A stretch of 64,000 nt of DNA from Candidatus Jettenia caeni. Lineage in GTDB: Bacteria > Planctomycetota > Brocadiia > Brocadiales > Brocadiaceae. The stretch is from NCBI GenBank assembly GCA_000296795.1, contig BAFH01000003.1:1550401-1614400 (forward strand), read 5' to 3'. Below, piece by piece: positions 6,180-6,583 of this stretch. The position numbers and the translations under genes are program-made. Positions within the stretch are counted from its first letter, which is position 1. Each line of letters opens with the position of its first letter. Under the pieces are notes generated by a model. The model was not told the origin of the DNA. It searched no databases and saw nothing but the letters and a program-made list of their open reading frames with translations.

Positions 6180-6237
6180 TGAGACAAAAGTGTCTCATGA
6201 GACACTTTTGTCTCAGACATTTTTGTCCCATGAGACA
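6180..6237. promoter_or_regulatory. Perfect 36-bp palindrome plus extra TGAGACA sites, probable activator binding site
   Basis: Bases 6180-6215 read the same on both strands: TGAGACAAAAGTGTCTCA next to its reverse complement. Further TGTCCCA/TGAGACA half sites run to 6237. It lies about 350 bases upstream of the sigma-54 activator gene, the usual distance for an enhancer. Autoregulation by that protein is an inference; a hairpin or repeat role is also possible. Confidence 0.55.
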
Positions 6238-6261
6238 TATTTTTCATCTTAATATGAATAT

Positions 6262-6326
6262 TTCTTCTTCTTCTTCTTCTTCTTCTTCTTCTTCTTCTTC
6301 TTCTTCTTCTTCTTCTTCTTCTTCTT
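6262..6326. repeat. (TTC)21 microsatellite
   Basis: 65 bases of uninterrupted TTC (21 units plus TT). Such long perfect triplet tracts are rare in bacteria and prone to slip-strand change. It sits between the palindrome and the activator gene, so a length change would alter the spacing of upstream sites to the promoter. Confidence 0.97.
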
Positions 6327-6440
6327 AATAAATTATCGTTTACTACAAAAGTTGTTAAGTAATTTTTGTCTTATAGTTACGATAAATTTTATCATGTGAA
6401 ATATTTTTTCAACGTATCATTCAACCATTTCTGATAAATT

Positions 6441-6457
6441 TGGTACATAAATTGACA
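6441..6457 (+). promoter_or_regulatory. Candidate promoter of the activator gene
   Basis: TGGTACATAAATTGACA resembles a sigma-54 -24/-12 site (TGGCAC-N5-TTGC) with the conserved GG, but GA in place of GC. The TTGACA within it could instead be a sigma-70 -35 box, though no good -10 follows. Weak call. Confidence 0.3.
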
Positions 6458-6583
6458 CTATAAAAGTAGGGTAAAAATAACATTGCGCTAATATATTCAT
6501 CATAAAAGATAAAATTGCTGAAGACCTCATTTGGCTTTGCACCTTATTTTAAGTAAATACTGGGAGGTGATCTTATTACAAGA

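Follow-up and report, generated by a model that had tools for sequence, protein, structure and literature searches.

A predicted sigma-54 enhancer array upstream of a PocR activator gene in Candidatus Jettenia caeni, most likely read by an NtrC-type response regulator

In Candidatus Jettenia caeni, a perfect palindrome and a long TTC tract precede the gene of a sigma-54 activator, an arrangement that raises two questions: which protein reads the palindrome, and whether the tract acts as a switch on the gene. The gene spans positions 6584 to 8125 (plus strand) of the window, that is, the whole stretch of 64,000 nucleotides that was analysed, and position 6583 is the last base before its ATG. 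It encodes a 513-aa protein with the Pfam domains PocR, Sigma54_activat and HTH_8, in agreement with the PocR-sigma-54 activator that the first-pass annotation had proposed downstream of the palindrome and the tract. The genome (G000; 4.09 Mb, four contigs) carries the hydrazine synthase alpha family PF18582 at two places, a family present in 0 of 14 control genomes, and is therefore that of an anammox bacterium. The two hydrazine synthase alpha matches have identical scores and lie on different contigs (G000:C1:97605-97919 and G000:C4:490015-490329).

The inverted repeat measures 40 bp, with arms at 6178-6197 and 6198-6217 that are 100% complementary and abut with zero spacer; the first-pass annotation was right about its perfection and its TGAGACA half-sites, and slightly short on its length, given as 36 bp. 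The palindrome consists of two abutting 18-bp sites of the form TGAGACA-N4-TGTCTCA within an array of about four, none of which is assigned to a strand. Site 1 (6180-6197) and site 2 (6198-6215) have 0 mismatches and together produce the palindrome 6178-6217, site 3 (6213-6230) has 2 mismatches and overlaps site 2 by 3 bases, and a degenerate site 4 (6231-6248) has 4 mismatches, its only intact half-site being the first, TGAGACA at 6231-6237. When up to 2 mismatches were allowed, 4 sites were found in the window versus 0.22 expected, a number reached in 0 of 100 shuffles. Sites 1 and 2 of the G001 array are identical to those of the window, and the G001 counterpart of site 4 (L124) likewise has 4 mismatches. 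A separate 31-bp inverted repeat (97%, with a 30-base loop) is located at 5981-6072 of the window; it contains GTCATTGCGAGGGTCTTTTCCGAAGC and has no visible counterpart in the aligned upstream region of G001.

The check for TGAGACA palindromes ahead of other genes, suggested in the first-pass annotation, yielded five arrays in the genome, that of the window included. At up to 1 mismatch, the pattern TGAGACAN4TGTCTCA occurs at 7 places in G000, versus 0 for a reversed control pattern. The remaining arrays lie ahead of the genes for a sigma-54 activator (C2:596773), a protein combining a caspase domain and PEGA (C2:420427), a PAS-HD-GYP-like protein (Pfam PAS and HD; C3:1041031) and a subtilase (C4:302639). 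A 34-position sequence-only model was then built on 14 of 19 site pairs, leaving out four rows identical to kept rows and one row, G012_1, that is one base off G005_C9. At E <= 0.02 this model recovered exactly the five G000 arrays; since all five had supplied model rows, the recovery shows that the model detects no further similarly strong array, rather than providing independent support. Orthologous arrays are present in G001 and G002, which belong to the same genus, and more arrays in G004, G005, G006 and G012. At E <= 5 the model gave 30 matches in G004 versus 17 in G000, spread in G004 over many contigs (C249, C126, C128, C141, C85, C224, C251 and others), suggesting a larger regulon in that genome. 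The activator gene at array 2 (L006:6203-7603) is intact in G000 and is seen only as a short frame in G001 (L147), where the array and the promoter-like element are kept. Two perfect abutting TGAGACA-N4-TGTCTCA sites were also seen near the start of the stretch fetched from a viral contig (IMGVR_UViG_3300005613_000380; L249:21-56), a double site that is not connected here with the regulon. A repeated 18-mer, TCAGACAAACTTTTCTCA, found at five places in G000 (C3:307995, 718262, 1723518 and 1762171; C4:880655), is apparently unrelated to the arrays.

The genome encodes an RpoN DNA-binding domain (E 3e-60), and a sigma-54-like -24/-12 element, TTGGTACATAAATTGAC, lies at 6440-6456 on the plus strand, with TTGGCACATAAATTGAC as its G001 counterpart. 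It reads GG-N10-GA: 10 bases lie between the -24 GG and the -12 pair, whose G was required by the scan itself, as was the GG; GC, usual at -12, is absent there and replaced by GA. For the comparison across arrays, stretches of 440 bp were scanned on both sides of 18 arrays from 6 genomes, the gene side and the opposite one; this set leaves out the G006 array, which is near a contig end, and a single G001 site at 1986235. An earlier scan of 19 arrays left out G006 and kept this single site, which showed no promoter-like match with a score of at least 11. At the same score, the classical -24/-12 consensus was found on the gene side of 9 of the 18 arrays and on the opposite side of 1, with a background of 0.96% of 3751 windows. 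After the consensus had been widened in the light of these data, the corresponding figures were 18/18, 2/18 and 4.2% of 3730 windows. In most elements TTGG(T/C)A comes first and TTG(A/C/T) second; the elements lie 110-425 bp away from the edge of the array, and their -12 pair is GC in 4 arrays, GA in 11 and GT in 3. Because this pair is mostly GA, we label the elements sigma-54-like and not textbook.

Since all 18 multi-site arrays have a -24/-12-like element at that distance on the gene side (9 of them by the strict consensus), the array of the window is predicted from its sequence to be a sigma-54 enhancer array, and the enhancer-like character attributed to the palindrome in the first-pass annotation holds. 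It has the features of an upstream activating sequence, namely a repeated inverted-repeat site located 5' of a promoter-like element, conserved at orthologous promoters and common to several targets. A sigma-70 promoter was also considered for this region and rejected: the one weak match (9/12), at 6366-6395, compares with 2.8 expected by chance, and TTGACA at 6452 lacks, by eye, a good -10.

The reader of the arrays is most likely RR-a, a two-component response regulator of the NtrC type encoded at G000:C3:1039256-1040956. RR-a carries REC, PAS, sigma-54 AAA+ and HTH_8 domains (Pfam) and a GAFTGA stretch that we take to be the loop motif of sigma-54 activators; it reached the NCBIfam cut-off of none among the best 25 of 120 families. 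Upstream of its gene lies that of a multi-PAS histidine kinase; on the 3' side come an array and then the PAS-HD-GYP gene. A TGAGACA-type array lies 3' of the RR-a gene in all five orthologues (G000, G001, G002, G005 and G006), at up to about 130 bases in four of them and at about 250 bases in G006. The helix region WSRVKAARLLGMSRSTFYRK is common to the five, and SRSTF occurs in 0 of the 24 other RR homologues with a complete helix. In a tree of 28 of the 32 RR rows, from which four partial rows were dropped, the RR-a clade has a support of only 73/88 and fits a single origin. L006, the other EBP whose gene has an array, was rejected as the binder because it is absent from G001, G004, G005 and G006, which have arrays; at E <= 1e-110 it was found in only 2 of 24 genomes, G000 and G002.

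The motif and the recognition helix of the response regulator change together. At the same place in G013, G022 and G020, the helix is SRRT(I/V)YRK, and position 4 of the array half-sites is C instead of G. In G022 the order of kinase, RR, array and PAS-HD-GYP genes is kept, with the helix SRRTIYRK and the array TGACACACAAGTGTGACGTCACACTTGTGTGTCA. The G022 array ahead of the PocR activator gene, AAGTGTGTCATGACACACTT, is of the C type too, and the PocR activator helix, SRASLNNKI, is identical in that genome. Because the array motif there is of the C type with the PocR helix unchanged, it follows the response regulator and not the PocR activator. At 13 other RR loci, a TGAGACA site at up to 2 mismatches was found in none; a C-type site (TGACACA or TGTCACA) at up to 3 mismatches fits better in 8, 2 are ambiguous, and 3 have no site by count, with C-type half-sites visible by eye in two. 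The co-change comes from few independent lineages. Furthermore, G012 has no RR-a (best 50% identity, in the AAA/HTH part) yet keeps one weak array, and the G004 RR ends at a contig end before the recognition helix in a genome with many array matches. A tandem pair of paralogous RR genes, separated or flanked by C-type (TGACACA/TGTCACA) sites and accompanied by another PAS-HD-GYP-like gene, was observed at G000:C3:1753125-1757324 (L212) and in G002:C2 (L215), and possibly represents a parallel regulon with a different half-site.

As for the TTC tract, its 65 bases (6262-6326, plus strand; 21.7 copies, 100% matches) are as perfect as first annotated, and it does lie between the palindrome and the sigma-54-like promoter. 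Runs of at least seven TTC copies occur at only one other place in G000, C3:497579-497623, inside a reading frame in which they encode poly-glutamate. At the orthologous place in G001, where array, flanks and -24/-12 element are all kept, the tract has 34 bases versus 65 in the window; site 1 lies 234 bp from the promoter-like element there and 260 bp from it in G000, so that the two spacings are 26 bp or 2.48 turns apart. The change in tract length between species is real, and the variability of tract and enhancer-promoter distance anticipated in the first-pass annotation is thus seen between these two species. From the edge of the caspase-gene array to its promoter-like element, the distance is 224 bp in G000 versus 425 bp in G001 and G002; an intact caspase gene was not found 3' of the G001 counterpart of this array. 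At two other arrays, the array-element distance is constant within 2 bp across orthologues.

Because distances differ at orthologous array-promoter pairs, spacing has not been fixed over evolution, which speaks against an on/off switch that requires an exact spacing and leaves room for tuning. The phase-variation switch suggested for the tract finds no direct support; the orthologous pairs with spacing shifts of 26 bp and 201 bp keep both array and promoter-like element. The half-turn shift without loss of either suggests tolerance, the change in tract length seems to be tolerated, and the tract resembles a spacer of variable length more than an established switch. It is doubtful, in our estimate, that the tract serves as a mutable tuning element of the sigma-54 enhancer loop, in which slippage would shift spacing and helical phase and leave PocR activator levels, themselves under a separate two-component system, graded or switched across a population of anammox cells.

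Other explanations of the locus were weighed against the enhancer array read by RR-a. Under autoregulation, the PocR activator would bind the palindrome before its own gene, and slippage in the TTC tract would switch expression on and off. Such a circuit would suit the palindrome adjoining the PocR activator gene, a tract situated between array and promoter-like element, the difference in tract length between species, and the control of vlhA genes by a GAA/TTC repeat in Mycoplasma gallisepticum, as described in PMC6258824. However, the distribution of the two elements disagrees with it. Full-length relatives of the PocR activator (47-96% identity) are present in 7 of 38 relatives (G001, G009, G016, G022, G027, G030 and G037), and a search of the genome contigs for related loci added 80 distant loci at up to 47% identity, most of them over a partial query. 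Arrays are present and a full-length relative is absent in G002 (same genus, 99% complete), G004, G005, G006 and G012, so that the array is independent of the PocR activator; conversely, no array site at up to 3 mismatches precedes 5 of the 8 PocR activator genes (G009, G016, G027, G030 and G037), similar half-sites before the G016 gene being seen by eye only. Moreover, the motif changes where the PocR helix does not, and arrays stand at other targets without any such tract. Autoregulation is consequently improbable, and the proposal that the adjacent activator binds the palindrome gives way to a motif that tracks the recognition helix of another activator. A gene resembling, by eye, that of a STAS-type protein lies near the PocR activator gene in G022 (L125:8259-9001) and G016 (L127:198-1037), and none was seen beside the window gene.

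We consider it very unlikely that the palindromes act as RNA hairpins, intrinsic transcription terminators included, even though 6178-6217 was scanned as terminator-like (an 18-pair stem followed by CATTTTTG) and some copies lie 3' of a gene, as at RR-a. A terminator is unexpected at the G000-2 array because the gap that holds it lies between divergent genes, a pyruvate-kinase-like gene (named by eye) on the minus strand and the activator gene on the plus strand. In addition, many arrays are offset imperfect dyads with a 15-18 base spacing and not single hairpins, and the gene-side sigma-54-like element would be left unexplained. Copies of a dispersed mobile repeat without a regulatory role would account for near-identical sites at several loci in a genome that has other repeats, but the likeness is limited to the sites, orthologous positions in two or three congeneric species retain the arrays, and the 7-4-7 layout, free at its centre, matches a protein site, which makes this origin scarcely credible.

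The explanation that we consider likely is a sigma-54 enhancer array read by RR-a and belonging to a five-array regulon, with the PocR activator gene as a second-tier target and the TTC tract as loop filler. We infer that dimers of RR-a, once phosphorylated, would occupy the tandem 18-bp sites, form a loop over about 200 bp including the tract, and activate the sigma-54 polymerase at 6440-6456, whereupon the PocR activator would be made as a second-tier regulator. The slippage-prone, length-variable tract would fill the loop, its length being tolerated or exerting a modest tuning of output. The array most likely acts on the PocR activator gene, and an array driven by a response regulator at this gene would therefore constitute a regulatory cascade.

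The mechanism is ordinary and the regulon is new. For anammox bacteria, the analysis delineates a sigma-54 regulon together with its probable two-component regulator, and paralogous regulators whose recognition helix changes along with the array motif offer a testable case of specificity divergence. If the TTC tract does tune the loop, it would exemplify repeat-based control of a sigma-54 promoter. Our literature search, partly judged by title, found no description of such a sigma-54 regulon in anammox bacteria, and the terms 'anammox', 'Brocadi' and 'Kuenenia' have 0 occurrences in the available part of a 2025 sigma-54 survey (PMC12316311). Literature on repeat-spaced promoters, judged from listings, provided nothing on sigma-54 beyond the Mycoplasma case.

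Among known systems, RR-a resembles the NtrC-family structures 4l4u, 1ojl (ZraR) and 5m7n, with sequence matches over AAA+ and HTH (E 1.7e-91, 1.7e-84 and 2.2e-72, respectively), and differs from them by a PAS domain between REC and AAA+. The arrays are like the upstream activating sequences of Fis-type HTH activators (the NtrC/ZraR family and Clostridiales EBPs) in PMC6615313: they comprise inverted-repeat sites, often several per target, 5' of a -24/-12 promoter, and such sites often adjoin the activator gene and are read by HTH_8. According to that paper, most sites of Clostridiales EBP regulons and their promoters are 100-250 bp apart, many targets carry several of these sites, and similar DNA-binding domains have similar motifs among sigma-54 activators. 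Unlike the Clostridiales sequences described there, the present arrays have the motif TGAGACA-N4-TGTCTCA in abutting or overlapping tandem sites, have their targets in an anammox bacterium, lie at 110-425 bp versus mostly 100-250 bp, and face elements with mostly GA at -12. The tract, in turn, is like that of vlhA in M. gallisepticum, a variable-length GAA/TTC trinucleotide tract in a promoter region, for which PMC6258824 gives best expression of this gene family when 12 GAA lie some 40 bases from the start site. Unlike vlhA, a single tract is involved here, recognized from sequence alone in what is presumed to be a sigma-54 loop region; the two species have about 22 and about 11 copies. Since the vlhA GAA tract affects expression (PMC6258824), repeat-tuned expression has a precedent, in a different setting.
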